Positions 35,264 through 62,000 of a DNA stretch of 64,000 bases are shown piece by piece. Every line of letters begins with the position of its first letter. Position 1 is the stretch's first letter. The notes under the pieces were generated by a model. The model searched no databases. It was not told the DNA's origin and saw nothing but the letters and a program-made list of their open reading frames with translations. This stretch comes from Brachionus koreanus (taxonomy: Eukaryota; Rotifera; Eurotatoria; Ploima; Brachionidae): the NCBI GenBank assembly GCA_016987375.1, contig PJRA01000016.1, positions 1,136,740-1,200,739 of the forward strand, given 5' to 3'. A program made the translations under genes and the position numbers.

Positions 35264-38200
35264 TTAATTTGAAAAAGTTTTTTTTATGTCTTCAAGAATA
35301 TATTTTCGGTATTTTTTTTCTAAATCAAACATAAAGTCAATGTAATTATCAATTTTAAAATTTTCTATTTGATTTTCTTTTAAGTATATTTGCAAATCTC
35401 GATTTGTGTGATGCTGTACAATATTTTGATTGCAACACACTGAACTAGTGTTCTCAAAATTCGACTTTTCATTTAAATGCTTGAGAATCGAAACACAGAA
35501 ATAGGCCTGAAAGTCAACACCGTAAACTATGCAAATAGATATGTAGGTTACTATATCGGGCCAGTCCAAATAATTCCAAAAACATTGCTTGAGCCAGTTC
35601 GAGCATATCTGTGATGGAGATAAACCAGACATTCGAAAAGCCGAAAATATCAACGGCAATTCAATTTTTAGTATTAGCTCTATGTAATGACATATCGTAG
35701 GCAACAAAATGCTGATTCCATTCTTGGCATAAACATCAGGCAGAGTTGACTCATTGCCAAACAATCTAGCTGACCATAAGAACGATGATATTTGCAAAAA
35801 GTGAAAATCATAGATAAAATTGAAACTTGATTCCAAGTCACATTTGTTCATTAAAAATATTGTTGACAAAAACCAGTCATAGCCTGGATAGGATTCTTCT
35901 TGGCAAAAAGCTTAAAAAATTTAAAAAAATGATAACAATAAATTTTAATAATAATAACTAATTAAAGTCATAGGTTTTTTTTTTTAAATAAAAAATTCAA
36001 ACGAAAGAATTAAAATAGTTACAAAGAAATCACATGACCCTATGCTCCCCAAGGAGCGCATAAGTAGAAAAAAAGAAAAATATGATTAATTCCTTTCATC
36101 AAACATTAAAAATATATACTTTGTTCCATACGAGCAATGATTAGATGTGAATATTTGAACTCTTACAAGCATCAAAATTTGAAACCTAATTTATACCAGG
36201 GATCGATTTTAGGTCCTCTTTTGTTTGTTCTATTCATTAATGACTTACCTGAGGTATTTGATATTTTATATTAGTTATATGCAGACGATACAAAACTCAT
36301 GAACTTAGTGAAACAAGAGATCGAAAGAAGAAAGCTTGAGCAAGACGTTGAAAAGTTGGTAAAATGGTCTTCTGAATGGAGGATGAGTTTCAATCAGCAG
36401 AAGTTTGCGGTCATGCACATTGGTCCAAATAATGTTTGTAAAGGCTTCAAAATGAATGGGTAAACACTTTCCACTACCTGCAAAGAACGCGATCTTGGCA
36501 TTTTTATCACCAGTGACTAAAAATCAAGTGAACAATCAAAGCGATCAGCTACACGAGCAATGATTGCAGCTTACAGGATAAAAAACACTTTTAAATACTT
36601 CACACAAAGCCTTGTTGATTTGCTTTTTAGGTCTTTCGTTCGACCCCATCTTGAGTTTGAAGTAGGGGTACAGTGACATCAAAATCCTGGAAAAGGTTCA
36701 AAGTAAGTTTTCGAAATTAGTTCCAGAGCTAAGGTCAAAGCCATATATTGAAAGAAGGGAGGCTTTAGGCTGGACAACACTAGAAAACAGACGCAGATGG
36801 GGGGGACCTTATTCAGCTTCACAAGATTTAACATGGACACGATAGGCTCCAGCTTATCAATGGTACTCAAACACTTGCCTTCAATAATTTAGATAGTTCT
36901 GTTGGTGGTACAAGAAGAAGAAGACTATCAATGAAAGACAGATTGTGCGCAACTGTTTTAAATTTAAACTTATTAAATTTAAACCAAACCTGACGTAAAT
37001 AGCAAACTCAAGGTAAAACCTCAACACTACATATCCTTTTAGGCTTTTTTATTTTTTATTTGAAAAATTTGTCAAATAAACAATAAAAAAAGTTGACTCT
37101 TACTTAAATAAGTTTCTTGCTTTGATTGTGATTTTTTTGATTTTGAATTGCTTAATTTTAGTAAGGCTTTGGTTAACTTAATTAGATCAGTCAAGTTTTT
37201 AAATAATTCTTCTTTAGAGAATTTGTCCGTTCTATTAATCAATTGTGCGTACCTTTTGTGTAAATTTTTTTATATGCATGCGAAAAAACAAAAAAAAAAT
37301 CTAAATTTACTGAATTGTTTTTTCGACACCAAGAAAATTCAATTGAGACAAATTAGGCTGTTTTTTCACATGTTGTGTCTTTATTACTTCAATGCTTGTT
37401 GATGGCTCTATCAGACTAATCAAGTTATTGGCATCTAATTTGAGCATTATTTTTACAAATTTTGACAAAGCATCCGACATTATGTCCACATTTGTATTCG
37501 ATTCCTTCAAGCTTTTTAGATACAAATTTTGAAAACCTGACTTCCATCTCAACTGAGTCTCTTCACTTTTTGAAATATCATTATAGTTAAAATTTTTAAT
37601 AAAATCTTCGAATTCAACATCTTAAAGGATCAATTAAAAATTTTTAATCAAATTAAATCTAATATATGATTACTTGGTATATTTTGGTATATTGGCTTTT
37701 TAGTGTAAAAACTTGGCACTGGTAGTTTATCAAACAGGGGAAAATCAAAGTCAAAATTTTTCTATTTAAATTTAAAATTAAATTAATTTTTTTCTAAATA
37801 AAATTTCTTCTCATCCTACTGATTCTGTAAAAATTTTGGTTGGCAATATTTTTTCGCTCGGACCTCCAATTACATTTGAGTTTACCAGCACAAAATTTCT
37901 TTCAACCGACAAAGCATCAATAATAATACCATTACTCTCGCTATTATCATCCAAATTTTCCCACTCATCAAAAGCATCGTTTTCCTCTCGACTTGAGCTT
38001 ACCTCGTCTTCTTGACTTTGGCACGCTATCGATCTATTTGATTTCTGAAGATTGAGCAATATTCTATTCAAATCATACTGAACTTCAATTAAAAGAAGAA
38101 TATCTAGATCGCATTGTAGAATACTGATCAATTTTAGACCAAAAATATGAGATTGCTCAAAATTGCACAAGCTTGAGATTTTTGATTTTTTATCCAAAAA

Positions 38201-41200
38201 AGTGACTCTCTCTAGAAGGCTAATGAGGCCTTTGGGAAAGTCTCTGCTGCCATAGAAAGACCTTGGCGTGGCAAATACATCGGCTAGAAACTCGTAGATT
38301 GCTGAAAACGAGGACAAAATGTTGACCAAGAAAAGCATTGGTTTGTATACTTCGCGGTCTATCGGTTCTACTGAAAAAGCTCTTGGAAATGCGCTCATAA
38401 AATCGTCAGTACCAAATTCAAGCTCCAGCCATATGTCGTCAATTATGGACTGAATTATTTGAGCTTCGCTCAAATAGTAACAACCACTTGGTGTATTTGC
38501 TAGCTGTGAGATTAAAAATCCGTAGCCGAATTTTTCATATTTTCCCACTTGTATTTTTGATCTGTAGCGTTTATTCAAATAGTTGGTTACTTGGCCCAAA
38601 AGTTCAGTTTCATTTAGGTAAAAAACACCCTTGGGAGTGGACGCCATGTTCAACAAATTATCCAGCAATGAATCGGACCATGATAATACAACACTGTTTT
38701 GCTTTTGCTCTTCAAATACTCTAGGTGTTTCATTAACTGAATTTTCAACAACTAGCTATTTAAAATTTAACATTAATTTTTATTAATAATGACAGAAAAT
38801 TTTATTTTTAAATTATTTTAAGTTTTACCGAACGCCATGTGTCACTTATTAATTTGTTCAAAGCATACTCTTTGATCAAAAATTCTCCTTGGCACTTTGA
38901 GTAAAGTAGACGAACTATGTACAAATATTCGCTGATTTCAGCATTGGTCAATGAATGCTTGAGCTGATTTTTAAGAGCCTTTTTCACAAAATTTGATATA
39001 ATATGTGCCGCTGAATTTCTAAATTGATAAAAAAAAATTAAGTAGTAGTAGTAATACAAATGCTGTGGGAAACTTGAGTCTCCAAGTAGTGGCGCACTTA
39101 GAAGTCCCACTATGATATCATACGGCCAATTTTTTAAATAAACTATTTTCGAAAACTTATTTTTGCATATTTTCAAATAGCTTTTTTTAAATTTTTTTTA
39201 TTTTTTGTCTAAGTAATTAATAAAAAATTTTTTAATTATTAACACCCAAAGGACCGGTGTCAATTTGACACCCTTTTTTATGTTTAATATCTTTGGGGCG
39301 TTCATCAGATTTCAAAAAATCAAATTTCTCTATAAGATATATGAGAATAAAGAAAGTTTCAAATTATCACCGATCCTTTGAGTGTTGAATTTAAAAAAAA
39401 CTACTTTAATGGCAATTTTTTATTATTTTTGAAAGAAATATATGGTTAATGATTAGCCATATTTAATAAATAATCTGAAAAAAATCTGAAAAAATTTTTT
39501 AGACTTGAAATTCATGGGTAGTCAGCAAATGTTTTCGTAAGGTGTTCAAATTCTTTAAAGCTGTTGTTATTTGAAAATTTTTGCTCAAAAAAATAAATAG
39601 AATAAAAGCTGCCTAAAAGCTTTAAAAGAAGTATTGTGAAATTCAAACAAAAACCGAACAAAAATTCATTCTTTTTTGATAGATTGAAATTTATTAAAAT
39701 AAATAACATTCAAAAAAATATTGCAACAAGGTGCAAAAAAGTATATTCCACCTAGTTTGCTTAAAACATTTTTTCTTATCAAATAAAAAAGACAAAAAAT
39801 GAAACATTAATACGATTTAAATAAAATTAAATTGATTATTGATTTGATTTCCAAAAATAAAAGAAAGTAAAAATTTTATTTTAGATAAAAAAGGTGCAAA
39901 AAACTATGTAATTTTTTTTTTTCTAAATCTAGTCAGTCTTTAATTTCAACATTAAAAATAAAAGTTAATCATTAATCAAGAAAAATTATTAAAATTTTTT
40001 AAAAAAATTTAAATGTTTCAATTGTTTTTGATCAAAATTTTTTCTTTGGTCAAAGTCAAAGTGGTCAAGTTTATAATTTAGGAAAACATTCTAAGACTTT
40101 GGATGAACAAGTGAAAAGTGTCCGTCACGATTTAATTTTTTCACAAATAGAGTTGCAAATTATATGAAATGGATTACCGGAAGAGGTGGTTAGCGCAAAA
40201 AAGCTAAATAGTTTTAAGTCGAAATTGAAAGTATGAATTGAGAAAAAAGAAGATTAAAATTAACTTTTAAAATTAATATTTACTTGCTTAAATTTGAGAG
40301 AAAATTTTGTTTAGTTGTATTGTTGAAGAGCAATTGGCGATAACCGTTTTCAGTTGAAGCCAATTTGGATAGAACATTGGCAATTAAAAGCATACAGCTT
40401 TCATCATAAGTCGAAGCTTGTTGCTTATCTGATTGTGAAGACTGAATTATTGTTTTTATTGGCTTTAAGAGATAATCAATCACTTCTTCATTACATAGAC
40501 ATGCATTGCAAGTGTCTTCGGATACACACAGATCAATCAGTAAATCATAGGCAAATTTAGATGGCGAAAATTCTTTTTTATTCAGTTAAAGAAAATTGTA
40601 TTTTTTATGTATTCTTTTTTTAATTTACCATTCAATGTTAGATTTGAAGCTGTGTCAAATATCAGTTGAATAATCACAATTAATAGATCTTTGATGCCAA
40701 CTTTAATAATTAATAAAATTAAAAACGTTGAAATAAATTGTTGAATAAAACATGTACTTTCTCTATTAGACAATTTTATGGGAAATAATTTTCTGCCATT
40801 TTTAAAGCACAAAATTTTTTTTATCAAATTCAATGAGTGTACAAAATGAGCATATTCAATCTCTGATTTTTTGAAAATAGTCCGTTTGGTTATTACACCG
40901 GAAGCCACCGAACCTTCATTTAAAATAATCAATTATTGAAAATAAGCATGTAAAATAAAAAAAATAATTTATTATTTATTTAGTTCATAGAAAATTAGCA
41001 GAGAAAAATTAGTAATTTTAAATTAAGATTATTTTGTTGCCATGTTTTTCAATAATAAAAAAATTTAAAATTTACTAATTGATTTTTTTCGCTCATTATT
41101 TGTTTTATTTTTGCTGGTAAGATCTGAGTTTTTTGGTCCAGTACTCGAATAGAGCAAAATAGATTGTACTGCAGAACGAATCTTTTCAATAAAGAATTTT

Positions 41201-43683
41201 TTAATTAACAAAAAAAAATAAAATTTAAAAAATATTACAAAATTTTCATATTTTTTTAGATTGTCTATTAACACTTTTCGACTTTCATGACCGTGCTTTT
41301 TTTTTTTTGATTAAAAATTCAAAAAAATTTTTAAAATTTTAGTTTACCATCCACTTTGAAAACCAATTAGCTTGAATATCCAGGAGTGATAAATAATGAA
41401 CAGGAGTCATAAATGTTCCGAATTTATAATCCGAAATTAGGCTTAGAAATTCTAGTGTTTCATCAATTAAAGTCTCGATGAAAGAGTCCGGATATCGAGT
41501 CCATTTTAAACTAACATCTTTTGCATAGTCATTTATCAGTCGGAACTAAAGTTAAAATTACTTATATTATTAATTTTTCTTTTCTACAAAATTTAAATAT
41601 TTCAAATTCAAAGTGGAAAAATTTATTTTCAAATTAAATACTGATAGATATTTTATCAAAAATTGTTTATTGTTATTATTATTATTAATATTTCAATGAA
41701 TACCTTTCAGGCGATGTTAAAAAAAAAGGTTTGCAAATACAAAGGAAATAATTTAAGGTAAAGTAAAATTTTTGATCAAATTTGATCAAAAAGTTTTAAA
41801 TGCGCAATTAAATTTCTTCGCAGATCATAGAATTTTTGTAACATTTCAAAGCTTTATTTTTGAACTGTTGAAAAAGGATTTTAATTTCTAAAAATGCATT
41901 GAAACTGCGCATTTAAAATATTTTGAGAAATTTTGAAAAATGAAATTTGATCAAAAATTTTACTTTGCCATAACTTAAAAAAAATATTTGCTTAAACAAC
42001 ATTTCAACAAAAATAGTAAAGAAGAAGAAACCAAGGTATTTGAACGGAAATTGCATCTGCCAAAAGAGCTTTAGTATGGCAGATCTAAGCTTAATTCAAA
42101 CCAAAAATAAGTCTAAAAACTCCAGCTTAAATAAAAAAATAATTTTGTTATACAATTCATTCATTTTGTCATTAAAATAAGTTTATTTTGTTATAGCTAA
42201 AATATATTTTATTAGTCACCACTTTTAGTTTTTTTTGTCATCTTAAAAAATTAAATTTGTCACCCCCAAAAAGTATAAGTCTTTTCGTAAAACTTCTTAT
42301 TTTCATGGACTCATATTTTTTGCTTTAAATAAGAACTAATAGTTAATCAATTAAGAATCTTAAATTTTTCCCCATTTTAAGGTGTACATTTATATTTTTG
42401 ATTAATGAAAATTTTTTGAAATTTTTTCTTCTCGATTCATGAACTTATTCTTCGTTTTGTTGTTCAAAAGTCACAAACTTAATTTTTTTTTAACAAAAAA
42501 GCCTTTTGACTTGACTTTGAAAAGACTTTAACATGACTTTTTCAATTATAAAAAACGAATAATAATTTTTATTATTAAAAATTTCTAAGCTTAAATTTTG
42601 AAACAAGACAAATATTATCTAACTCGAGTCATTTTGAAGAATGAATTTTTTTCTACACATGAATTAATTAATGACATTTTTTTTTTAATTTTGAATAAAA
42701 TAAATTTAAAATTCAAATTACCATTCTAAGTATAAACAAATTGTCTGTGCTCAGCAAGTTAACATTAGATTTGAAAGTTCGATTCTCAATTTCTTTTCCT
42801 TGAAAATATTGACTTAAATGAGTGACTATATTTTTATAGATTTCTATTGACACTTTATAATGAGACGAAGCCAATGTGCGCGAATGAAGCTTTAAGCACA
42901 TTTCCTTTAAATTAAATAAAAAATAAAAATTAATTTAAAAAAAAATAACTTTTTTTTCATTACTGATATTTTCTCATTGGGATCTCTGAATGCATGATTA
43001 AGGTATTTTCTAATGTCGACCCAATGGTCAGCTGCTTGGGGGTCACACGCCGGGATTGCTAGCAACTGATGTATGGCTCTAAGCCTCAACTGGTCCGATT
43101 TGTTGGGATCTAGATTTTTGGCGATGGCCGGAAATTGTTCGCTTGTAAAAAAAACAAAGCTATTATGATTCATTGAATTATCCGGGGAGCTGAAATCAAA
43201 GTCATTTGTGAATGTGACACTCTTGTTCTCATTTTCAATCAAAGTAACTTCTTCTGAATTATTTTCAATAAAATTTGCATGGAAATTTTTTTCCAAATAG
43301 TCGTTAGCCTTGAGCACGTGATTCTTAAAGGAATTTTTGAACTCGGACACTTCTTTGGTCTTTACAATTTTTTGACAAATATTTTGAGCCACCTGATTTT
43401 GTAAATCAATGTCGCCATCAAATTTAAAGCTAGCAAAAGCTTCGTTTATGCTTCGATTGATCGAACTGCCCAAATTTGTCTCAATTTTGTCGTGCAAGTA
43501 CTCGACCAAATCATGTCGGTGAAAATTTCCATCAGTTTCTTCCATGTGCTTCAAATTATCTTCTAACTGTTCGGAAAAACTCGCATCCTTGATGTAATTG
43601 TCAAATGACTTTATCATTTTTCGCAGGCCTATGCGTATTCGTTCACTTTGAACCCTATCCTCTGAAGATCCATTATCACTCAT
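35264..43683 (-). CDS. TBC1D32: Protein broad-minded (TBC1D32), ciliary assembly/Hedgehog factor
   Basis: Works with the CDK20/CCRK kinase in cilium assembly and Hedgehog signalling. Thirteen exons join in frame to 1439 aa: 43683-42964, 42904-42722, 41545-41348, 41295-41239, 41181-41076, 40913-40629, 40572-40284, 39180-38829, 38755-37820, 37761-37674, 37620-37311, 37252-37104 and 35910-35264. The N-terminal part is armadillo-like. Recognisable segments include METDGNFHRHDLVEYL-type sequence in exon 1, LASTPKG-like and EKFGYGFLISQLA in exon 9, and FEQSHIFGLKLISILQCDLD. The last exon is the degenerate TBC domain: GYDWFLSTIFLMNKCDLE, FSAFRMSGLSPSQIC and WLKQCFWNYLDWPDI. No Arg/Gln-finger motif is evident, as in the family. 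It is somewhat longer than human (about 1257 aa). In-frame tract 39019-39057 may be an extra 39-base intron. Shares an upstream region with HYDIN. Confidence 0.92.
36100..37000 (+). mobile_element. LINE reverse transcriptase pseudogene in TBC1D32 intron 12
   Basis: Plus-strand translation gives QGSILGPLLFVLFINDLPEV, then an intact YADDTK (YADD at 36278-36289), then LEQDVEKLVKWSSEWRMSFN, KFAVMHIG and ERDLGIFIT. Further on come AYRIKNTF and SFVRPHLEF. Internal stops break it at several points. It lies antisense to the host gene inside the 1193-base intron 35911-37103. Confidence 0.8.
39241..39386. mobile_element. 146-base inverted-repeat element, piggyBac-like ends
   Basis: The left arm AACACCCAAAGGACCGGTG (39241-39259) and the right arm (39368-39386, complement AACACTCAAAGGATCGGTG) differ at two of 19 positions, with further loose matching inward. 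The left end abuts TTAA, the piggyBac target, but the right flank reads TTGAA. The interior has no frame. It lies in TBC1D32 intron 7 (39181-40283). Confidence 0.5.
40110..40260 (+). mobile_element. 3'-end fragment of a LINE ORF2
   Basis: The plus strand reads FFTNRVANY in one frame. After a shift it reads NGLPEEVVSAKKLNSFKSKL, the typical end of CR1/Jockey-like ORF2 proteins (FFSNRVVxxWNSLPEEVVxAxxxxxFKxxLD). It is frameshifted and very short, and lies within TBC1D32 intron 7. Confidence 0.6.
41757..41969. mobile_element. MITE copy 1 in TBC1D32 intron 2
   Basis: The left end GGTAAAGTAAAATTTTTGAT and the complement of the right end GGCAAAGTAAAATTTTTGAT form long inverted arms of about 26 bases. 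The interior (CATTTCAAAG, TTGAAAAAGGATT, AATTTCTAAAAATG, GCGCATTTAAAATATTT) recurs in the same order at 54395-54614, so this is a dispersed family and not chance. Confidence 0.65.
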
Positions 43684-43802
43684 AGTAAAATATGAAAAAA
43701 GTTCTATTTTGGTTAAGCAGATTTATTATAATAAGGAAAAAAATTCAAATTTTAAAAATAATTTGCCTAATTTGTCCATGACATTCAACTCTGTGACTCT
43801 CA

Positions 43803-43816
43803 GTTTCCATGGCAAC
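43803..43816. promoter_or_regulatory. X-box (RFX site) 1
   Basis: GTTTCCATGGCAAC fits the RFX consensus RYYNYY-N(1-3)-RRNRAC exactly with a two-base spacer. It lies 120 bases upstream of the TBC1D32 start codon, within the usual distance for ciliary genes. Confidence 0.78.
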
Positions 43817-43886
43817 ATATACGAATACTTAATTTTTTTCATATACAGTTCTTTATTCTTATTTAAAGCGAAAATTTTGTTTAAGG

Positions 43887-43900
43887 GTTGCCATGACAAC
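43887..43900. promoter_or_regulatory. X-box (RFX site) 2
   Basis: GTTGCCATGACAAC is a textbook X-box: half sites GTTGCC and GACAAC around AT. It lies 142 bases upstream of the HYDIN start codon. The sequence is nearly palindromic, so it can be read from either strand. Confidence 0.85.
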
Positions 43901-44041
43901 AAACCAATTTTATTCTAATGCTTTTTTTTTTTGATATTTTATAATACATTTTAAAATTTTGCTATAATTTTTAGAAGAAACTTAACCCATTAATAATACA
44001 TTGACTTTAATTGATTTATCATAGCCCAAATCTTGTCCAAA

Positions 44042-47000
44042 ATGTCTTGGGAGATAAAGGGAACAGTTGGCTCGTTGGAAGCCTTGCCGCACATTAGTTA
44101 TCAGAGTAAAGTGAGTGCGCCCAAGAATCCCAAACTTATCAAAGAAATAAAAAGCGTTCGAAAAGTGAGCTCAACAAAAGATTATAAAAAGAGCTAATCT
44201 AAATTGTTTATTTAGCTAAAACCTTCAGAGTTTTTAAAAGAAATGTCCATGGATACAAGACAAAAATTGGCCAGCACACACGAAATGCATTTGCCGCGAA
44301 TAATTGAATTGCTCGACATGGGCGAAACAAGTCTTCAAAAAGTAGAGCTTACTTTAATCTAAAATAATTTAATATATTTAACTTAATTAAAGAACACTCA
44401 ACTGATGGTCGATGAGCCCATGTTTCAACCGTATCCATCCGAAATTTATTTTCAAAAATTTGAACCCTTCATGACCTACGAAATACCGTTGTTGTTGCGT
44501 AATAATGACAAAGTGCCGCGTTTAGTTAAAGTAACCCAATTGGATACGCCCTATTTTAAGATAATTACATCGGCCGATGCGCACCAAAAAGTCGGACCAG
44601 GCCTCCCGGTTATTTACAAAATTCAGTTTGTTCCAGAAGAAAACAAGGACTACAACCATGAATTGATTGTAACTACCGAACGTGAAAAGTTTATTGTGCC
44701 AATTAAATGCATAGGCTCACGTGCCATTCTTGATTTTCCTGATGAGATAAATTTTTCAACCGATGGTCCATGTCCAGTCAAACATTCGGTGTTCAAAGTT
44801 CTATGCATCCGTAACATAGGCAATAGAGATGCCAAATTTTCCCTCAAATGCGAAGAGTAATGTTTTATTTAAATTATAAAATTGTTCCATTTTAAACCTT
44901 TAATTATTTAAGCATTTTTTCGATTTTTTTCTCGTTTTCCATAAGCACTTTAAAGTAATTTTGTTTATAACACTAGGAAGGCTAGGTGTCTATCTAAAAT
45001 CAAACATAATACAATCTCTAATTTAAGATAGGGCTTCAGTTAACTTTTAGATTAATTAAAAGAGTAATTTTTTTTTAAATAATCAAAAAAAATTAAATTA
45101 GGAATTTTGCAAGATACTTTATTTTTTATTTAAAAAAAAAATATTTACTTTCGTTAATTAAATCAATTAAAACAATAATAAATTTAAATTTTAGACATAT
45201 TTAAGTTTTAAAAATTGATCTTTTTTAAAATTATTAAGAATTTTTTTTGATCAAAAAATTAAATTTTTGCTCGAATTTGCACTCAAAAAAAACAAAATAA
45301 TAAAAAAAAAAAAAGCTAATTTTTATATAAAAAATGGCTAAAACATCGGCAAAATTTTAGAAAAAAAATCCCACTTAAGCACTTATTTTTTTTGGCATCC
45401 TCTTTTTTTTGGAGGTTCGTCTTAATTTATGTTTATGATTGAAATTGATGAAATCTGATGAACGAACATTGAATTATTATTGTCATTACGCTCAAATCTA
45501 CTAAATATATCTGTTTCAGGTCTCTAAATTAATGCTATCTTTTCTCCTTTGCTGTCCAACTATTGTCACCAAAGTTCTCATGGCTTTCACCGTGTCCATT
45601 GCTTCTTTGTACGATAAAAAATCGACTTGATGGTCATATACTCTATTTGCTTTTGTTCTTGGCATCAAGGTTATACAAAAGAACATGCTAAAATAAGAAA
45701 TTTACGTTCTAGTTTCTAATTAAATAATGATAAATTATCTGAATGATCTTTTTTTTTTTTAAAATAAAATTAGTTAATTTAATTGTTCACAAAAAAAAAT
45801 ATTCAAATAATAAAAATTGTGGATTTAATTTTTATTTAAAATGAGACAATAAAATTAAAAAGAATAAAGCTTTTTTTAATTTTAATTTATTTTTGAATTT
45901 TAAGACCGTTTTCGGTGTCACCCGAGCACGGAATATTGCCTGTGGGTGAAAACATGCAAGTGACAGTGTACTTTAATGCACAAAAATGCGATGAATACAA
46001 AAAAGAATTGAGCATTAAGTACGACTCAAATGAGACTATTTACGTGTCGCTCTACGGTACTGCTCAGGACGTAAACGTCCGCTTGGACAAAAGCTCAATT
46101 CGCATCGAGGACACATACATAACCATGTGCAATCAACGCACAGTTACCATTCACAATCGTAGCGACATAATTGTTCATTTTGAGTGGAAAAAGTTTGCCA
46201 GCAGCGAGCTAGAACAGCAGAATAGACTCAAAGAGGTAATGAGCCTAAATAGAGATGAAGAAAATGCGAGAATAAAAATGTCCAATTTGGCCGAAGATTA
46301 CATGGCATTGTTGTCAAGAAATTTTCAAAATAAAATTAAAACAACCGAACACAAACCGTTTCATTTCGAGGACGAAGTGTTTTTTATTCAGCCGATCGAG
46401 GGCGACATATGGCCAAATTGTTCATTTGAAGTTAGTGTAATATTCAAGCCAGACTATGCACAAATCTACAATAGAATAGCCTATTGTCAAGTGACCGGCC
46501 GTGAATCCCGACTGCCTCTTAGACTGACGGGAGTTGGCGCCGGACCCAAAGTACAACTATCCATCGAAAAACTAGACATTGGCAGTGTGTTCATAGGCTC
46601 GACTCATGTCTATGAAGTAGTCCTGTCCAACCGTGGCTTTATTGACGCCATTTACAATGTCAACATGCCAAACACTCAATTTGGCAAATACTTCAATTTT
46701 GAGCCAAATGAAGGTCTAATATCCCCGAATGGCTATCAAGCAATAAACATAACTCTAACATGCGATCAACTAGGAGACTTTAGTGAAGCTTTTGATTTTA
46801 CCATAGACGGCAAACCGGACAAATATACAATGATCATACAAGGCACTGTAATACCACCAACTTTTTTGTTTGATGTGCCAAACATTAAGTACGGCCTGGT
46901 ATCCTATGGTTTCAAGTATACACATCAATGTCTGCTGGCCAATACTTCTCTAGTACCAATGAGCTTCAATTTACGAGTGGCCAGTGACGGTGAGGTCAAA

Positions 47001-50000
47001 GAATTGGCCGAGTCGGACCCGGACGAGTTCAATTTTAAAGAATTTTCCATAGTACCAAGTCAAGGCATTATTCCGCCTCAGAGTGAAATAAAAATTTTGC
47101 TTGAATTTGTACCTCATTTCATAAAAAAATACGAGACATACTTGATTGTTGATATTGAGAATGTGGGCGATGAATTGTTTCAATTGCCCATTAGTGCTCG
47201 TTCAACAGTGCCACAAATAGGAATTCTTACTCCTAACATTGATCTTGGTCGATGTTTTATTTATCATTCATATGAAAAAGTAATTCAATTACACAATGAG
47301 ACATCGCTCAAAGCAAGATACTATTTGCTGCCATCCAAGCCAAATGACACAATAAAATTCACAAGCAATCAAGCCGAAGGAGTAATAGAACCCAATTCGA
47401 CCAAATATGTGTCTGTATTTGCCGAATCGCTTCAATTGGGCGACATACAATCAGATTTGCTGATCAAGATAAACGGTAGTGTTGAGCCACCGCTTGTATG
47501 TAATTTTATATGCATCAGTCAAGGACCTGTGTGTCAAATATTGCCAAAAGAAATAGACTGGGGCTTGACAACTGTGCTGCAAAAGTCACCAAGGGATATT
47601 ACTATTTCAAACGAGTCGTTGATTGAGGCCAAGTTCAAAGTGAGCATGAGCAAGAGAAATTCGGCTTGGAAGGTCGAACCATCTAATGGAGTGGTCGAAC
47701 CAGGCCAGGAAATTGTCCTCCGGGCTATTTGTTACTTGATTGATAAAACTAGATACGATGATTGTATATCTATTGAAATTGAAAATGCCAATACACAAAA
47801 AATAAATGTGAAAGCTCAGGGCGCTGGAAGTTCTATTGTATCTGAGCCGAGCATTGGTAATTCAATTGATTTTGGTACTTTTTTTAGCGGTGGATGGCTT
47901 AAGCGAGTATTTAAATTGACTAATCGAAGCTCTAGACAACAAAGTTTGTCGTTTATGCCTGAAGTGACTGGCTCTAGTTTGAATAGAAAAGACAAAATGT
48001 CTAAATATGTGCCAAATACTTTGTTTAAAATAAATCCAAATCGAGTCGAGCTTAATCCTGGAGAATGCAAAGAAATAGTTGTTGAGGCGTTTGGCGAAAA
48101 GCCGCAGCTAGTTGAGGAATATTTTATTTGTAATTCAATTATTGGAAAAACAAGTGGAAAAGATAGAATTATGAGATTTAAAATTAGATGCGAGTTTGTC
48201 GCACCATTGGTCTCATTTTCAACCAAAGATCTTGTATTCAGATGCGAACATGTAATTATTTTGTCAATTTTTTTTTCTAAAAAAATTTTTTCTCTTTTAA
48301 AAAATTATTTAAAACTTTCAAAAAGAAAGTATAATTTGATTCATTTTTGGCATTGTGAATTTTAGAAGCAAAAATTTAAATTTTTTTTTTATTTAGTCTA
48401 AAATTTGTGGTGAAAAATGCATCAGCTTATACAAAATTTTTAATCACTCTATTATTTCTGTACTATAGATTTGAAATTTGATTTTTAATGATTTGGCTAT
48501 AAATGTTGTGTTTTGCAGAGAGAAATTTAGAGTAATACAAACTATTTACAAGCTGATATATTTTGCAGAACAAATTTTTAACTTTTTGCTGTGTTTTTAT
48601 GCCAAAACTTATCATGTTTTGTGATATATTAGCCAAAGAGTTCCAAAGGGTCTTTGAAAAGCTAATTTTCATTTTTTTCCTTATACATTCCTTAGAACCA
48701 TAGGGTCATTACTTTTGATTTACACTCAAGTCCATGTTTTTCCTTAACCCTTGCTTTACCCCATGTGTGAAACTAAATTAACCTTCATTCACATTCACTA
48801 TCATACATTAGTTTTCCTTTCATATATTATTGTTCAGCTTAAGCTTTGTTTTTATTGCTGAAGCTATTTGATTTCCATTTTGGTTTGAGTCTTGCAGATG
48901 CACTTTTTGCTTTCGACAGTCTACTCGCAATGTCTTTGTGTGGTCCCATAGTCGTGCTGATGATACTTCCAGTAATGTGAATATTTTAACGCTTAGCCAG
49001 AGTGTTAAGTTCCTTGTCTAAACTTATTATTTTGGTTTTGATCCCGTTTATTTTAAGTCAATTTGATTTAGCATTATTCACAAGATCTTGCGTTTTGAGG
49101 TAAATATTAGCTTCTGTACTTGCTAACAACATAAGATAATCAGCTAAGTCAAGGTCTTCAAGTCTTGTGATAAGACTTCACTGAATACCTTAGATTAGGA
49201 TTGAACTTTGAAGCTTTCAGATTGCCCTTTTTTCTAGAAGTATACTACAGAGTTTTGTCAAGTTGATGATGTTCCTTAGAACAAATATATGATCAAAACA
49301 TCCTCTTATTCTTCTTAACACCGCATGTTTCTCTCTTAGTAAACCATCCAATGACACCCTTAATCTGTCCAGAAACACACTTCAGAACCCTTTGCTTGCT
49401 ATTGCAGGATAATTCCACTCCAATGGTCGCAGATAATTTTGCAACCTTCAATTTTCATGTACTCAATGTATTATTTTTTCGATAAATCGTAAAATTTTGC
49501 AAGTTTTTCTTATTGCAAATAAAGAACTATTCAGTTAAAAAAAAATGAAAATTTTAAAATTTTTGCCAAATTTATCTTTATTAAATGAAAACAATCAATG
49601 AAAAAATTTAATTTTATTTACTTTTAAAAAAAGGATGGAAAAAGTTTACCTCCAAATGAGATTAAAAACTTGACTATATCAAATGTATCAACACTTGATC
49701 TAACTGCTCACATGTCAACCAGCTCACCATTTAGTTTGGTTGATCAAGAGACTGGAAATTTAGTGAATGAAATAATGACGAGTTTAAAAACTGGCGAATC
49801 GTTACAAATAGCCATTAACTATAACACACAATTCAAGAACGATTTGCACAATGAAGTGTCAAATGGTCTGCTTAACATTAACTATTCAGAGCACCAACAC
49901 GGCGATGCAGTCAATCTAATAGGAGAAATCTATTTTCCCAATATTCATTTGGAAATGAATCAAATTGACTTCGGTTGTATTCTAAATAACACAGAGGTCA

Positions 50001-53000
50001 CTCAAATTATTAAAATGACCAATATTGGACCATTGGAAGTAAATTACAAGTGGAAATTTGTGCTTGAAAAAGACAATATTATTTCCAATATGGCTTTGAC
50101 CGAAACTCACACAAACCGATCAATTGAATCAGATAGCAAGGATTTCAGACTTGATTTGTGCGATGTAAATGATGAAAATCAAGATGGAAACAATTTTGCC
50201 AATAGTCAAAGTCTCATTGATCAATCAAAAGCTCAAATAGAGAGCAAATTGGAAGAAATATTGGCTAGAAATGGCGAACGGGAACTTCCTACTATTGAAG
50301 AAATATTCAATATAACTCCTTTGTTCGGCACACTCAACCCTGGCGAAGTCCAGAATCTAACAGTTACTTATTTCGGCCATAAAGAAATTCAGGCTTATGT
50401 TAAAGCAGTTTGTGAAATACAAAATGGACCTGACTATGAGTTAGCTCTTCGTGGTGAAGCATCTGTTCTCAATTATGAATTAAATACAAGACAAATTAAT
50501 TTTGGAAATATTGTAAAAATTTTATTTAGAAACTTTAAAATTAAACAAAAAAAAATTCATACATATTTTTTTAAGCCTTATGATGAAATAAGTGAGGCCA
50601 CAATAACAATCAAAAATCTAGGCCGGGTTAACATCGAGTATAGTATGATTGGAATCGATTATGAAAATCACACTGAATATGTAATTGAACCAGATGTTCC
50701 CATTATTGTACCAATTAAAGTATAAATTTATTTAAAATTCAAACTGATTTAGTTTATCTTTATTTTAAAGGGTTCAATCGAAGCGGACAAAACTGAAACC
50801 CTGACTATTAAATATCTACCTGGTAGTCCGAAAAAATTCTCTAGAACATTCCAGCTGCAGATATCACATTTTGCACCGGAAGATATTTTAATTGAAGGTG
50901 ATGCGGGCTTTGCAGATATTATGCTTGATCTTCCACGTTTTGAGAGCCATGAATATACTCAACTAAAAGATGAAGCAAAAAGTTATGTGAAAAATTCTGA
51001 ACAAAAATCAGAAGTTGAATTGAATGTAATAAATTTTTTTTTAAACTTGTTCAATTTTGAATATTTTTTCCACTAAGTCTTTGCATCTGGTGCCTGAATT
51101 GGACTTGCAAGTCGAAATTGATAGATTAGCTATTCAAAATTTTGTAAAAACATACTCAGCTGATATGTTTCAAGTAGTCGCTTTGGAAAAAGACAACCAA
51201 AGCGTTGTTTCAAGTGAATCAAGTGAAAGTAATCATTCAAAAGCGCAAGAAATATTCGAACAAATGTCAAGTCCAAAACAGTCAAAACAACAATTGGCTC
51301 AGCAGCCAAAGAGCGCCATTTCAAGCAAAACATCTCTAAGCACTAAAAGTCAAATAAAAAAGAAAATAAAGTAAATCTAAAATTAGAAAAAAAAAATTAT
51401 TTATATTCTATTTTTTCTTATTCAAAGGCCATTTTTGCCTGATTATATTCTTGACTTTGGTCATGTTATCTTGGGTACAGTCAAAACCCATGTAGTTAGA
51501 GCAGCTAATATGGGCAAAATATCGGCTAGTTTTGAAATTGAAAGGCAAAATTTTTCAAAAACTGGATTTTTAATCGATCTTGAAAAAGTTCGATATTTAC
51601 CTCATGATGTCTCAGTTGAATTTGTAGTCACATTTGATCCAAGAGGTGCAAATCTTGGCCTAGGACCTGTCGAACACGTCATACCCATAAATGTATATAT
51701 TTTTAAATCTGTTTTTAAAATTTATTTTTCTTTTATTCTTTTATTGAAAATTTGTGTTTAAAGTTCTTTAGTTTTTGATTTAATGAATTTTGAAACAAAA
51801 AAGCAGTACCTAAAAATTTTGATAGATTTTTTTTGTTTTTATTAAAATTGAATTGTGAATTTGGTTTGATAATATAATAGTGACAAGTGATACAAGTTGA
51901 TACAAGCATATTTAGTATTTTTAAAGGCTACTGCCAAGTAACTTTTAAGTGCTAATTATTGGTTCAATCAAGTGAAATAAAGGTCTAAAACAACTTTTCA
52001 GGATCAAGAATTTCTTTATAAAATTTTTTTTCAATTTTCTGGTTCATTTTCTATTTTAAAATTTTTGGAATAATAATTTTTTATAGCTTAAAGATTTAAA
52101 AAAAAAAAAAATTAGCTAAAAACTTTTTGAATTTTGGGCAAATTCAAGCTTCTGATCAAGTTAAATTATTATTCAAAAAAATTTTTTGAATATTTCTTGA
52201 GTAAAAAAATTGTTGCCGAAGCATATTTTCAAAGTTAACATTTAATGTTTGATTTTATTTTTTAGTGTACATTAACCAAATGGTTATTTAAAGTGTTTAG
52301 CCTACCTGCTTGTAAATTTTTGTCTTCCAAATGTTTTTTTCTACATTTAAATAAGAGAAAAATTCGCATGAAAACAAATTAAATAAGTCAAATAGTTCTA
52401 AAACAAATAATTTATTAATAAAAATTATTTTATTATAAAAAAAAATCAAAAAAATTTTTTATTCAAGATTGCCAATGGACCGATTGTAAATCTTCGTCTC
52501 AAAGCCAATGTAACAATGCCAGACTTGCAAATTTCAGATGACATAGTCGATTTTTCTGATGTAAAATGTGGTGAATGTAAAATAATAACAGTTCAACTGA
52601 ACAATCACAAAGAAGTGAGATGTGACTGGTCAGCGTCCTATTTGCCCAAAAAAGAGGAAAAATTTACGCCAATGCATCTAAAACGAAAGAAAAAACTTGA
52701 ATCTGAGCAAAATAGGCCGAAAATATATGAAATTATGCCACCTAGCGGCATCCTAATGCCCGGTCAAAAGGCCAATATACAGATAAAATTCATGCCAACC
52801 GAGGAAAAAAGCTACGAAGAGAGACTAACGATTCGCATGGCTCAAAGCAGTCAGCGTTTGATGATTCTTTGCAAGGGAAAAGGCCTAGAACCGAGGATCG
52901 AGCTGAGCAAAAATTCGATTGAGTTCGATCCAATTTTGCCTCATAGTGCCGGCGATGAGCAAGAAGTCAAAATATGCAACCCGTGTACCTATCCGATTGA

Positions 53001-56000
53001 AATTTACAATTTAGAATTTGACAAAAATTATCTTGAAGATGAAAGAATTTTGAGAATAATACGCGGCTATGACGAGTACAACACGATTCTATTGCCGCCT
53101 AGAAACGTTGGAGAAAAATTGCCCATCGAATTGTACGATTATTACGAAGACCAGCAAAAAAAACTCGAAGAAGAAGATCAAAAACAAAAACAGCTTCTAA
53201 ATGACACTATAAACGAAATAGAAAACACCGAGACAAACGAAAAACAAGACGAAAAAATCGAATCGTCCAACTCTCAACAAGCAGTTGGCGATGTGGAAAA
53301 AAATCCCGTATTTGACTCGATAGCCAGATACCTGGGCATAGATTTGTCGAGTGAAGGACGGGCTGCTCGCAACAGACGCGGAGTCTCTATGGTTGTTCAT
53401 GGACCACCACTTTCAGGAAAGAGTCAAGCTGCAGTGGCTCTGGCTAAGCACTATGAATGCGCATTGCTTACTTTAGACTCAATAATAATCGAAGCTATGG
53501 CCGGCAGCACTTCGGGAGCAGCGGCCAAAGCTCGTCAATTTTGTGCCGAAGCAGCTACCAAAATGGCTGAAGAAGAAAAAGCCGAGTTGGCCAAAAACAC
53601 TGTGACTGGTCAAAATACTGCCAATTTGGCTGGCGGTTTGAGTGTCGAGGCTCTTGCTCAGCATTCAATCAGTGTCGGTGGTAATCCTGGCGGCAGCAAA
53701 AAGACATCAGTGGCTGGTGATTCTCATGCTAACATTAAATTGGGCAAAAAACTAAAGGGTGATGCATCCAATGCAGACCAATCGTCTAATCATGTAAATA
53801 AATTTTTTTTGTTTTTGATTGTCTTAAGAATTTTATCTTAATTCAAAAAAAATATTTGACTTTTATTTTTTTTTTTTTGTTGATCAAATTTTTTAATTAA
53901 TATTGAATTTTCAAAAATGTTTATTAAACAAAAAAATTATAGCCTAAAACAAGTCTAACATAAGTCTTTTTTTTAAATTGAGTTTAATAAAAAAAAAAGT
54001 TTTCAATTCTTTACAAATAATTTTAGCTTCTAATTAAATCTTCAAAAGCTCTCTTTTTGTAAAAAACTTCTTTGTACGACCATTAAAGCTCTCTAAAGTA
54101 TTATTTGTTGAAGTAAAGCCCGAAACTGAAACGAAAATTTGCCAATTGTTCCATTCACTTTCAACATATTGTTTTTTAAAATAGTCACCAAATGGCTTAA
54201 GATCAGGTATTTTGTTCCACCGACTAAAGGTCTTGATTGAAAGAAATTCATTCATTCGATTTTTATGCTTTAATAAAAAAAAAATTTTAAATTTTTATTC
54301 ATCATTGCGATGGTATAATTTCTTATGCTTTATTATTTTTTTAAGCGTCAAAAACCGACGTCAAAAAATTTAGTTTATTTGTGGCAAATAAATTGGACAA
54401 AGTAAAACTTTTAGATCAAATTTCATTTTTCAAAAATGATCAAAACATTATATTAAATTTTATCGCAGATTTTTGCATTTTTTCTAGATTTCAAAGATTT
54501 ATTTTTAAACTTTTGAAAAAGGATTGTGATTTCTAAAAATGAATTGAAATTTAATTGCGCATTTAAAATATTTCGATGATTTTTGAACAATGAAATTTGA
54601 TCCAAAATTGGGCGCTATGAATTCTGGAACTAAAATTAATAGCAATAACTTATAATTTTAACTTATAATCTAAGTTAAAACATATTCAAAACATTAATTT
54701 GCAAAGAGTAGCTATTCTTAATTCAGCTGATTCATTTTTCAGAATGACAGAAAATCTTTTTCATTCTATTATGGCTTTGATATTTGATTTTTTTTTAAAA
54801 TTTTTTTCTTCAATAAGCCTAAGCTTGTTTTAAACTCAATTAAAAAAAGCTAATGGAAAAACATTTTCTTCTGATTAGATTTTGCAGAAAAAAATTTTTA
54901 TTTTTAATAAAAATTAAATAAATATATTAAGAAAAATAATTTTTTTTAAAGCCATCTACACCACCACCATTGTCTGGACCAGTAGCGAGAAAACTGAGCA
55001 TATCGACCAATCTGTTTAGCAACGAAGATGGATTCATGAGCACAGTTCTTCCAGAAGAAGTTCTAGTCGAAATTTTGAGCGAAAGATTTATGCTTTCGGA
55101 CTGCAACAAGGGAATCATTATCGATGGTCTGGACACTTTATTTGCCCAGAACAATCTTTTGGCTGCTACCGCTGTTCTAAAGGCGTTCAATAATAGAAGA
55201 TACATTTACTTTTTAATAATAAAATCGGACTATCAAAAATACAAGGCCGAGTTGGCTAAGCTTCAAGAAGAAAAAGAAAGACTTAGAAAAGAGCAAGAGC
55301 TAAGAGAGCAACGCGAAATTGAAGAAATGGACGAGGACACTTACAATTCATTGCCGTCCGAGAGGCGAAAATTGATTGATGAACGATTTTTGACTACCAA
55401 AAAGCAGCGATTGAAAAAAGAGGCTGAGGAAAAGGCTGCTGAAAGGGAGCGCATAGAAAAAGAGCTTGCTGAGCAGCAAGCCAGAATGGAAGAAGAAAAA
55501 CAGTGAGATTGACTTTTTTTTTAAAGCTTTTTAAGCTAAAAAAATTAATTTTATCCAAGGAAAAAAAAGAAAAAAACAATTTCTGGAAAAGAAAGTGATA
55601 AAAAATCAACACTTCAAAATCAAGCAAATGCTGGTAAAAAAGAAAATCCAAAAGAAAATAAGGAACAAAAAATGGAGGCTAAAAATGAGACCAAAACTGC
55701 TCAACCAAATGGAACTGAACGACCTCATACTCGAATGTCTGCCGACGAAAATGCTGATAAACCGAAAAAAAATGCCAAAAACACTGACGAAGATTCAATG
55801 GTAAAAGAAAAAATAGTCGATCCCGAAGAAGAGAAGCGAAAAGAAGCTGAAAAATTTTTACAACAAAGATTCAAAACATTTGATATACACTTTAAAGAAT
55901 TGTGCAATTTATTAGAAGCTTGGGATAGAACTCAGGGCACGGTGTTTAGACAACCATCGCCATCTGAAAAATCAGATCCTGATGATCATTTACCAAAAAA

Positions 56001-59000
56001 AGGAACCAAAGCTAAAAGTAAGTTTTTTTTTTTCATTTTTCTACTATTTATTATTAAAAATATAAATCAATAAAATCAAAAATATGCTAATTTCGTTAAA
56101 TAATTCTTAAACACAATCTAAGGACTGATATTTTTTGTTTGTCTATTTGTATCGAACCAAAGCTTAATTAGATTGAAATTTACTCAAGTATGAAATAAAT
56201 TATATGATTTAATTATATTTTAAGACCATTGATTAATGATGCATGTTGTCTACTTGTAAATTAATTTACTTCTTTCCTTATCTTTTTTAGACCAAGTTAT
56301 TACAAAATATAAAAAAAAAATTCTATTTAATTTTAAAAACAATTGGTCAAATTATTTGCTTATAAAAAAATTTTATTTAAATTTTGGATATTTATGCAAT
56401 ATTTTTGCACTAAATTTTGATAAATTGTTAAAAGTGAATAAAAGCTCTTGATCCTTTGAATCTCAATTTTGAATTTAATTTAAAATTTTTTTTTTCAATT
56501 TTGTGAACAATTGAAAAATAATGATAAAAATTATAAGCTAGAGGAGAACATATGGGAAGTGAGATTAGAAGTAGTTTTTGAATGTATTAAGTGACAATAG
56601 AAATATTGTAATAACTATTATTTTATTAAATGAAAAAGATAACTATAAGAATAAAATAGAGTTACTTAAATATGCATTTAAGTACGTAATCAGATTTTTA
56701 ACAAGAATAAAGACACATCTACAAATTGCCAAAAAGCTAATAAATGAATTTTAATATTTAATTATAGTAGTTAAATTATTCAAGACATCATCTAATAATA
56801 CGAAAGTTTCGCTATGGTAGATATTTTTCTGCAAAAAAATGAATACTCTAGTTCTTAAAATAAGACTTTTTTCTTTTTTTTTATTTTTGTTTTAATTAAT
56901 TCAATTTTTTATTTTTATTAGTATTTTTGACGTGAAGAGCTTTAGCTCGATACAAATAAAAAAAATAAAAAAATTTCTTAGACATTTCTAATTTCATTTA
57001 ACTGCTTAAAAAAAATTAAAAAAATAATATTCATGATCTAGTATCCGAAAGTATTCTTACGAAATTAATTTACTTTTAAAATAATTAAAATTTCTCAAGG
57101 AAATTTGAAAAAAAAATGTTATCATCTAGACGCTATTTTAAATATATATTATTTTTCGTTCATATGGGCAGGTAAGCTGTCTGTTGTAAAACTCTAAATG
57201 GTCCTCTTCGTCAACCAAGACCTCTTTTTAAATAATGTACTATTTTAAAAAAAAAATTTTTGTTCTTAGATAAAGAAAAAGAGAAAAAAGAAAAAGAGAG
57301 AGCCGAAGCAGAGAAACTAAAGGCAGAAGCGGAAAAACAACAACAACAACTACTTCAACAGCAACAACATCACCAAGAGGAAGATGGCGAAAATCAGGAT
57401 CCAAATCAAAACATGCAAAACGAAGACAAAAAAGATGATCTTATAGGAGTTCCATGTGTAATATTGGACAATTTCAACAAGTCTGAATTGGACGAGGTCT
57501 ACAAGCATCCAAAATTTCCTCCAATTTCTGAAGTTTTAGATGGCATGGGTCTCGGTCCCAAAGGTCCACCAATTCCTCCACCAGCCACTTTTGCAGTTGT
57601 GCCCTATCCAGTCTATAGAAAAGCACCAGCTGGCGCAGAGTTCAGCCACTATATTTTTGTAACCAACAACGAAAACGATCCGTAGGGCTTTTTTTAATTA
57701 AAAAAAAAAACTAAAGAAATTTTTTTTTTAATTTAATTTAGAAATTTAATTCCGGACATAAAACCCAAGCAAGAAATAAGCATTATTCCAGAGGGCAGTG
57801 CACTTGAAGGTGAAAAAACACCTGATAACCCTTCGGGCAAATCCAAGTCACATAAATCGCTGAAAACAGGCATTTCTCGCAATGAGTCACGTACAACAAG
57901 TCTTGAAATGCAGCGACGAGCCAGCGGAGAACGCAAACGAACAGATTCGCGCGTAAATAAGCGAGACGCTGGTGCTCAGTCGCCAAACCGTGGCTCGTCA
58001 AGCTTGAGCGGCAATAAAGTCGAAGATCCAGCTGACGGTAGTGCGTCCATAGACGGAAGTTCCATTGAAAAGCCAAGTCAAAAGCTTCAAAGATTTAGAT
58101 GGATTTTGCCACCAAATGCCGAACTATCCATAAGACTGAGATTTACTTCGGAGGAAACTGGCCAGTTTGATCAAACACTTAACTTTGAAATAGTCGGCAC
58201 AAGACGAAGATATCAACTGCACTGTCGTGGTATATGCACTTTTCCAACAATTAGTCGCGAGCCTAGAATTGTGTTCAATAGCCGCAAGAAAACCAAAGAG
58301 CCAAATGAAATAATACATAAAAAATATGTGCTTAGTGAAGACGTGTTTGACTTTGGACCTCTCTTGATTGGAAACAACAAGGACAGATGCAAGGAAGGAA
58401 AATTTCCAGAGTATGTAGAGAATATGAACATTCAAAATGTTTCACCATTGGATGCTGAAGTTAGTTTTTGTTTTCTTGATGACACAAACGACAAAGCAGA
58501 CAGCTGTTTCTTTTTGGAACCATCTGAGTTAGTCCTAAAGCCAAACGAGACTAAGCAATTGAGAGTATATGCTTGTCCGCGCGATGCCAAAGTCTACACA
58601 GACTCACTCATTTGCTGCGTGAAAGAAAATCCAGAGCCAATTACGTTCCAAGTGGCTTGTCACGGCCAAAAACCCGAATTGGTCTTGGACAAGAAAGAAT
58701 TCAATTTTAAACAAGTTCTTTTGCACCGCAAAGACTCCAAAGAGATCAAAATGACAAATAACACATTGATTGCTGTGCAGTGGCGTCTAGAAGGCGTTGA
58801 TCTGCTCGGAGAAGAGTTTGTTTGCAGCCAGATTAGCGGAGTAATTGAACCATTTCAATCATTTAACTTGGTAATGCACTTCAGGGCTCTCAGACCTCTT
58901 AACATCACTCCCAAGGATAAGAAAATTCTCAAATTGCTCGTATCATCTGTGAACAGTTTTCTTGGATTTATGGAAAATCATTCGATTATGGTTATTGCTG

Positions 59001-62000
59001 AAGCGTATGATGTTGCTTTGGAAATCAATTTGCCAAAGGGAAATGATGGCGGACTCGAGTTCGGAAATGTACGAGTCAACAATGAGAGCAAATTGAATTG
59101 TACTCTGAAAAATAAGGGAAAATTTCCCATTAAGTTCAATTTTTTGACCGAGTCTACCGGTCCTAACACGGTCGAATTGCTCAAATATTTAACTGTATCG
59201 CCAGCATTTGGCGATCTGCCCGGTTCGGACAAAAACTCTCAAAATCAAACCATATCAGTCACTGTACATCCAAAAAAAGAAATATTTGTCAAAGATGCGC
59301 CTGTTCTTAAGTGTCAAATTATAGAGCCGTCTATGAATGACGGATCGGTTATAGCCAACATTCCAATTAAAATATCTCTCAAAGCAATTGTCAGCAAGTA
59401 TGCTTTTTTTTTCTTCTTTTTTTTTCTAATTTAATCAAGTCAAAAAAATAAAATATTTTATTAAAATTTTATTAAATTTTAAAGATTTTCGATTACTCCT
59501 CAATCTGAAATAAACTTTGGAGCCATTTTGAACAACACAAGACGCCAAGAAAGATTTGTAATCGAGAACAAAGGAGAATTAGACTTCAAATTCACAATAT
59601 CAAAGTACTCGCCTGAATCGCTCAAAAGTCAATCAAAGTAAGTTAAATTTGATTCGAGTAACTTTGACAAATACATGCACAATTAATGCTTGTACTAATT
59701 TTTAAAAAAAAATTTTTTTCAAGTATTCTCGATTTACCTGAATCGGACTCTAATCCGGATGTAAATCCATTAATTAAACAAAGGTACAGCTCAATGAGCA
59801 AGATCGGCTCTAAGCCGAATATTTTTCTCAGGTAGACTTGGAAATCTAGGTTTTTAACGCTTTTAGCATTGCATGAATTGTTTGTGTTTGTTTTGGACCT
59901 TGTGGATCTTGTTTGGGCTGGTCATTTGCTTTATATTTAAAACAAAATATATATTAAGCTAAGGCTTTATCTAAATGTCTCTAAAATTAATAGAATTTTT
60001 AATTTTACAAGTTTTTTATTAGTTTTAGTTTTATTAGATTTTTTTTTTTAAAATTGAAAAATTTATAAATAATTTTGTTAATAAATTAAGACTGCATAAT
60101 GGTCTATGGCGTACTTTAAAAACAAGAGAAAAAAATTTTCTCTTAAATTTTGAAAAAAACTTATTTCAAAATTTAACTTTTTAGTTAGAAAGCTTTTTTT
60201 TCTTGAGGTATAAAAATCATTTAGCAAAATGTATATATATAGCTATAAAATTACAGATATTTTTAAATTTTTAACGAAAAAAAAATTCAGTTTTATTGTA
60301 GAAATGAAAATATAACTTAATAAAAAATAAAAATAAAAAAAAAATTTCTTTGAATTTCTAATAATTTAATATGCTTCTCAAATAATTCCAGTAATGTTCT
60401 ATGAAAATGAAATTTGCCATCCACCAAGAAAAAATAGGGAGAAATCAAAAGACTTTAGGATGATCTGTTGGAAAAAAAAAGCTGATGAAAATAAATAATT
60501 CTCGAAAAGAGAGACCATTTTTTAAAATTGTCTGACTTTTTTCCATAAAACAATTTCACAACAAATTACATTTCTTTATAATAATAGTAAAAATTAAGTA
60601 GCCAATTTTAAAATTTGTCATTAATTACTAATTTGCTAACGAGTGAAAAATTAATATTTTTTTATCTCTAATTTTAAAATGTTTAATAAAATTTAAAAAA
60701 CATTTATTTACTAAAAAAAAATTGATTAATCTTAGTGATAGATATATATTTTTCAATTATTTAAATGCTAGTTTTTAAAATAAAATTTTAAATTTATAGA
60801 GATGCAAATCAAAATCAGGCAAGACTACAGTGTGGTGTGTACACAGTTACACCAGCTTATGGCATCCTGCTGCCTCAAGGCGGCCATCAGATCATAACAG
60901 TAGACTGCGGGCCAGATACACCTGGTCAATTTCAAGAAGACCTGCTAATTGATATTGTCGACAGAGACATGAATCAGTACCCGAATGGCATTGTCTACAA
61001 ACTAGCTTGTGAGTCTGTGCAGCCAAGTATTTTGAGCTCTAATGAAATATTCGAAGAGCACACCATTGTGCCTTCATTATCTTCGTTCAATCCGAAAATA
61101 ATGGGTGTCGGAATTTATGTCGAGGACGAGAACAAGTTTTTTTTCAACAATGTGATTGTGAATCGAACGACCAAGGCTCGATTTAAACTCATGAATAACA
61201 ACAAAATACCAATTGATGTCAATTTAAGCTTAAGCAACAAACCGTCAAGCACTAAAACAACTCGACAGCAAATGCTAGCCGAGTCAGTGTTTGAAATTGA
61301 GCCGTCCAAAGTTCAAATAGCTCCATTTTCTCACATATATGCCATTGTTTCTTTCACTCCAACATCAATGACTTCTTACAATGCATTTTTTGAAGCCTCT
61401 CTCGAAACTCTCAATTCAAATGTTAAAAATAAAACAATTAATTTTGAAATTTATGGCGACGGCAATTTGCCACGTTTCACCATTCTTAAGCCCAGCACAC
61501 GCAACAAAAAAGGTCAAACTATGATGCTATTTAAACGATGCATCGTGAATAGCAGCGAAAGTCAACAGCTAGTGCTTGCCAATGACGGAAATTTGGCTGC
61601 CAAAGTTAACTTTCATTTAATAGATCCTGATTCGGGATTTAATCTAAAACCTATTGAAAAAAGAGGAGTTGTTTTGAATGAAAAATCAGTGTCCTCGGTG
61701 GTAATTGAGCCAAATAGTCAAATGACTTTTACAGTAATGTGCTCTCCAAAATTAGTTCAAACATATCAAGCATCGCTGCAATTGACTGTGAATGACAATC
61801 AATTTGAAGACACAATGATTCAAATGATTGGCGAAGGATATATGGAAGATGTGATCATAGAAAACATGCATAGTTTGTCCAATTTGGAAGAGGATGAAAT
61901 GCTGTCTGACGAGGATGCGTGTGCCATCAAGCCAAATGTAATTAATTTTGGTGATGTGTACACAAATGATAAAAAGCAATTGTTGTTTACAATGAGAAAT

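Follow-up and report, generated by a model that had tools for sequence, protein, structure and literature searches.

A putative RFX-driven bidirectional promoter with two X-box-like sites between the ciliary genes TBC1D32 and HYDIN of the rotifer Brachionus koreanus

The gap between the start codons of TBC1D32 and HYDIN in Brachionus koreanus carries two palindromic X-box-like sites, and we propose that it is probably a compact, RFX-driven bidirectional ciliary promoter in which one X-box mainly serves each gene. The window analysed here is a stretch of 64,000 bases (C31:1136740-1200739) from a genome of 83,257,189 bases in 92 contigs. Within it, TBC1D32, on the minus strand, has its ATG at 43683, and HYDIN, on the plus strand, has its ATG at 44042-44044. 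The genes are divergent, and the proposed promoter, to which no strand is assigned, occupies the 358 bases at 43684..44041. Re-reading the sequence returned the same divergent gap and the same coordinates of both motifs as the first-pass annotation had given. A bidirectional promoter is recognized by two divergent genes whose starts are separated by less than 1 kb; here the start codons are 358 bases apart, and the transcription starts are predicted ones.

Both gene names, which had been assigned from the letters alone, were borne out by Pfam domains and by solved Hydin chains. The minus strand encodes BROMI_N, BROMI and BROMI_C in this order, the arrangement by which we recognized TBC1D32 (Broad-minded). 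Exon 1 (42964..43683, with its 3′ end placed manually at a GT donor) matches BROMI_N with 1.2e-16 and is followed by exon 2 (42722..42904, splice sites set by hand). Further open frames cover part of the central BROMI region (40280..40585, 1.1e-15), the end of BROMI together with the start of BROMI_C (37811..38755, 9.6e-45, the best BROMI match, and 4.6e-16) and the C-terminal Rab TBC domain (35264..35911, best BROMI_C match, 2.9e-68). Inside TBC1D32, at 36110-36845, pieces resembling a broken LINE-type reverse transcriptase were seen by eye; two sets of minus-strand frames (33929-34249 and 63558-63809) likewise resemble fragments of a mariner-type transposase. The role of TBC1D32 in Hedgehog signalling is knowledge from vertebrates.

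On the plus strand, HYDIN starts with exon 1 (44042..44164, 41 residues), exon 2 (44216..44341, splice sites taken from GT/AG positions) and exon 3 (44393..44860, 3′ end approximate), the last of which matches HYDIN_VesB_CFA65-like_Ig with 1e-07. The same Ig-like family is found in the open frames at 45897..48365 (1.8e-55), 49628..50725 (1.3e-09), 57737..59434 (6.4e-14, with Ig_CFAP65_4th at 5.2e-22) and 60792..62612 (1.9e-13, with Ig_CFAP65_4th at 4.6e-17), and the frame at 52411..53841 holds the adenylate-kinase-like domain Hydin_ADK (3.4e-25). A stretch of 795 residues from the Ig-like repeats at 45897..48365 matched solved Hydin chains with a best E-value of 1.3e-191 and up to 642 bits; the best other chain was DLEC1 with 58 bits. 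Wrong gene names were therefore rejected as a source of error on the strength of the Pfam matches and the solved Hydin chains. The idea that an upstream exon of HYDIN was overlooked, which would shift the start, is unsupported, since about 240 residues by splice-site count precede the point which aligns to residue 238 in two solved Hydin chains and to residue 290 in a third. A third, weaker Hydin_ADK match (6e-7) lies in an open frame of 545 residues at G000:C35:254419-254781, away from both HYDIN copies.

Both sites in the gap are 14-base palindromes, annotated on the plus strand. X-box 1 (43803..43816, GTTTCCATGGCAAC) is separated by 119 bases from the start codon of TBC1D32 and X-box 2 (43887..43900, GTTGCCATGACAAC) by 141 bases from that of HYDIN, while the distances to the farther site are 203 bases for TBC1D32 and 225 bases for HYDIN. 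With a 2-base spacer, both match the loose RFX consensus forms RYYNYY N1-3 RRNRAC and GYTRYY N1-3 RRHRAC; the latter occurs at three places in the 64-kb window, two of them inside the gap. The tight consensus GTNRCC N0-3 RGYAAC, as quoted in the accessible text of PMC10530576, is not satisfied, because by eye each site is one letter off, and RTNRCC(1-3)RGYAAC has zero matches across the window. Thus, of the earlier description as "two perfect X-boxes", X-box-like sites with a 2-base spacer and a loose-consensus match stand, and "perfect" does not. Degenerate X-box matches are plentiful in the window (76), and in Drosophila loose matches are described as not predictive of RFX control in the available part of PMC2375033. 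Even the palindromic pattern with up to two mismatches is not rare, with four occurrences in the window compared with 1.69 expected, a number that 13 of 100 shuffles reach. The case for the sites consequently rests on their exact forms.

These exact forms are strongly enriched in the genome. The strict pattern GTTNCCATGGNAAC occurs at 55 sites, in comparison to 1 for the same pattern read backwards, and GTTNCCATGANAAC at 46 in comparison to 4, which gives 101 places in the 83-Mb genome versus 5 for the reversed controls, a control that is blind to codon use. From the base composition of the gap itself, 2e-5 strict sites would be expected there. On both grounds a chance origin was rejected, in agreement with the earlier claim that the sites are improbable by chance.

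To what genes strict sites lie next was followed for 39 of the 101 places, comprising 31 that come early when contigs are taken in order and a further 8 that were selected as exact GTTGCCATGGCAAC palindromes. Eleven of the 39 fall in likely coding sequence (L008, L014, L015, L027, L030, L032, L038, L042, L043, L044 and L051), and word counts in the genome therefore overstate the number of promoters. For 25 of the remaining 28 noncoding sites at least one neighbouring frame was put to Pfam (L009, L047 and L052 were left out). Ciliary families stood beside 7 of these 25, a share taken without a matched random control: TMEM237, CCDC92, IFT122, IFT57, TMEM138, CLAMP (the flagellar C1a-32 family) and a CS-plus-TPR protein that we take to resemble DNAAF4. 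CCDC92 has a ciliary role. At the other 18 sites Pfam gave no family, or families not tied to cilia (CLP1, homeodomain, EF-hand, RasGEF). The site lies 60 bases before the ATG of the CS-plus-TPR gene, 68 before that of CLAMP, 76 before TMEM138, 91 before TMEM237 and 95 before IFT57; for IFT122 the distance is perhaps 150 bases, and for CCDC92 the best ATG found is 284 bases away. The TMEM138 gene (L034, ~3458-4007) has its X-box 76 bases before the ATG; in vertebrates, TMEM138 is one member of the TMEM138-TMEM216 pair, which has a link to RFX4. In its own genome the X-box is thus both enriched (101 versus 5 in the control) and present near ciliary gene starts (7 of 25, again without a matched random control). 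The 101 strict places offer a first handle on the ciliary gene set of a rotifer, though 11 of the 39 sampled are likely coding.

A second copy of the region allowed the gap to be compared with its surroundings. Contig C58 carries, at ~166-205 kb, a collinear copy of at least the topoisomerase I (Topo I) gene, a gene with three RRMs, TBC1D32 and HYDIN in the same order; the sequences L055 and L056 cover 176600-181900 of it. It may be a haplotype that has diverged strongly, or a block that was duplicated. As it belongs to the same genome and is perhaps a haplotype, it does not count as an independent species. For Topo I itself, the first named matches are to Trichinella zimbabwensis (57% identity) and then to bdelloid rotifers, with no Brachionus among the best 120 listed.

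Both X-boxes are identical, letter for letter, in the C58 copy. Over the whole gap, 9 of 355 aligned bases differ (2.5%), with three indels of 1-2 bases. The exons differ by 0.6-3.8%, including 1 of 183 bases in TBC1D32 exon 2 and 3 of 123 bases, all synonymous, in HYDIN exon 1, and no stop codons were found in the C58 exons tested. For TBC1D32 exons 1-2 and HYDIN exon 1 together, there are 26 synonymous differences in 196.7 sites (13%) and 5 nonsynonymous differences in ~829 sites. Synonymous divergence amounts to 12-17% in the two exons that show any, and in TBC1D32 exon 1 pS is 0.171 and pN 0.007. Introns overall differ by 10-17%: three short ones, pooled, at 16 of 161 bases and the large intron of TBC1D32, in a noisy alignment with large indels, at 167 of 972 bases. 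The difference rate of the gap is lower than that of synonymous sites (p 2e-6), of the short introns (p 6e-4) and of all introns (p 4e-14). Because the gap differs less between the copies than synonymous sites and introns do, it is under constraint as a whole. Judged from the aligned copies, this constraint is on the entire gap and not on the X-boxes in particular: if the X-boxes changed at the rate of synonymous sites, all 28 of their 28 letters would stay intact by luck with a probability of 0.019, and with one of 0.053 if they changed at the rate of the short introns. Taken together, the first-pass annotation holds in its gene identities, divergent layout and X-box-like sites beyond chance, with conservation in one diverged copy.

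A candidate regulator is encoded in the same genome. A single RFX locus came to light, matching RFX_DNA_binding at 3.7e-32 and BCD_RFX at 4.4e-98; an NCBIfam search of the locus returned no family. After a closest match of 92%, the protein matches Brachionus calyciflorus with 71% over 95% of the query and Brachionus plicatilis with 77% over 64%. We hypothesize that this RFX protein, which has the RFX DNA-binding domain and the BCD domain, occupies both palindromes, each of them most likely as a dimer, and that two divergent transcription starts follow a short way downstream inside the gap. In animals and choanoflagellates, RFX sites are situated close to where transcription begins, as described in the available text of PMC10530576, and 5′ UTRs of B. 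plicatilis average 52 bases according to the accessible part of an EST study (PMC1925144). Trans-splicing of a spliced leader could conceal the true starts, but in B. plicatilis that EST study reportedly found no such leader. Both starts are therefore expected inside the gap, and each X-box would be ~70-90 bases upstream of a predicted transcription start. TBC1D32, a gene of ciliogenesis, and HYDIN, a gene of the central apparatus of motile cilia, would come under the same RFX programme and presumably be co-expressed. We suppose that each start requires an X-box of its own at short range and that this is why two sites are retained, with X-box 1 acting mainly on TBC1D32 and X-box 2 mainly on HYDIN. 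Such use of the nearer site fits the site-to-start distances at other X-box genes, with 119 and 141 bases here in comparison to 60-95 bases at five ciliary genes and perhaps 150 at IFT122.

The strongest alternative is that this compact genome simply places two independent RFX-driven ciliary promoters back to back, where either gene has its own X-box, with no cross-talk and no selection on their linkage. It overlaps with our preferred explanation and differs from it in the cross-talk only, and we consider its chances about even. It would account for two sites instead of one shared site, each at the usual distance from its own gene. For 101 sites scattered at random, one would expect 0.12 pairs at most 1 kb apart and 0.012 pairs at most 100 bases apart, which makes one lucky neighbour pair conceivable; against this, among the 99 of 101 strict sites located for the spacing analysis, the gap and its C58 copy are the only doublets within 1 kb, and the closest pairs are 83 bases (C58), 84 bases (gap) and then 6,561 bases apart. 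The stretch between the two X-boxes, where 1 of 69 bases differs from C58, is constrained like the rest of the gap, which also speaks against two unrelated promoters. However, a second X-box promoter present in two copies (L024 on contig C10 and L049 on C21) precedes a gene with an Fn3_assoc domain, is 96% identical over 1.2 kb and, in the region that surrounds the site (1400 to 1800), differs at 0-4 of every 100 bases. Constrained promoters are thus not special to the TBC1D32-HYDIN pair, and constraint alone does not amount to a shared switch. Neither counterpoint is decisive. The word "switch" in the earlier reading accordingly goes beyond the evidence, as two independent back-to-back promoters would look the same.

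RFX might also control only one site or one gene, the other site being a relic or a weak helper of the same gene. One half-site deviates in each X-box, as such a reading would allow, but both sites are unchanged in the C58 copy and X-box 2 recurs often across the genome as an exact word (20 occurrences versus 0 for its reversed control), which makes this improbable. That an AT-rich promoter has produced these palindromes by chance, without any part for RFX, is very unlikely on sequence grounds and the least probable reading of all, for although degenerate matches are common, some strict sites are likely coding and the reversed-pattern control makes no correction for codon use, the small expectation for the gap, the genome-wide excess of both strict patterns, the ciliary neighbours and the constraint on the gap all stand against it.

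Beyond the preferred reading of an RFX-driven bidirectional promoter with one X-box mainly per gene, we speculate, with considerable doubt, that the two X-boxes form one module in which selection holds the general ciliogenesis gene TBC1D32 and the motility gene HYDIN together and the balance of their products is set by one common RFX input. If so, this module would represent the sole strict X-box doublet of the genome, as judged from the 99 of 101 sites located, and the first such ciliary pair in rotifers. The gap offers a compact setting in which RFX control can be put to the test in a rotifer, and a natural test of whether one X-box serves two divergent ciliary genes or each start has an X-box of its own.

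The first-pass annotation knew of no described shared promoter for TBC1D32 and HYDIN, and we likewise found none in the literature searched, a body that leaves most subscription papers outside; nor was a paper found there that treats rotifer, RFX, X-box and cilia together. The comparisons below follow the available portions of the papers cited. Inverted-repeat RFX sites close to ciliary gene starts are known from Drosophila, C. elegans, vertebrates and choanoflagellates (PMC2375033, PMC10530576). The TBC1D32-HYDIN gap resembles these X-box promoters in its inverted-repeat sites near the start and in the RFX gene of the same genome; in contrast to them, it has two sites between two divergent ciliary genes, lies in a rotifer, departs from the tight consensus by one letter in each site and consists of predicted sites. 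TMEM138 and TMEM216 are adjacent ciliary genes with a shared RFX4 element between them (PMC3631122). As in our pair, adjacent and non-homologous ciliary genes enclose an RFX element, RFX-bound there and putative here; however, TMEM138-TMEM216 are arranged head to tail around one conserved intergenic element, whereas TBC1D32 and HYDIN are head to head with two putative sites. In Xenopus multiciliated cells, work on Rfx2 and Foxj1 also described a probable bidirectional promoter beside Cep290 (PMC5245798). It too is a proposed two-way promoter at a ciliary gene, known in that case from chromatin and binding data and here from sequence. With divergently paired genes and bidirectional promoters as a general class (PMC2670823), the gap shares the head-to-head arrangement and starts that are probably less than 1 kb apart, and it differs from them in its ciliary genes, in the site of a ciliary factor near each gene and in starts that are predicted. 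The mechanism is thus of a known kind, and what looks new is the gene pair, together with the doublet and the lineage.
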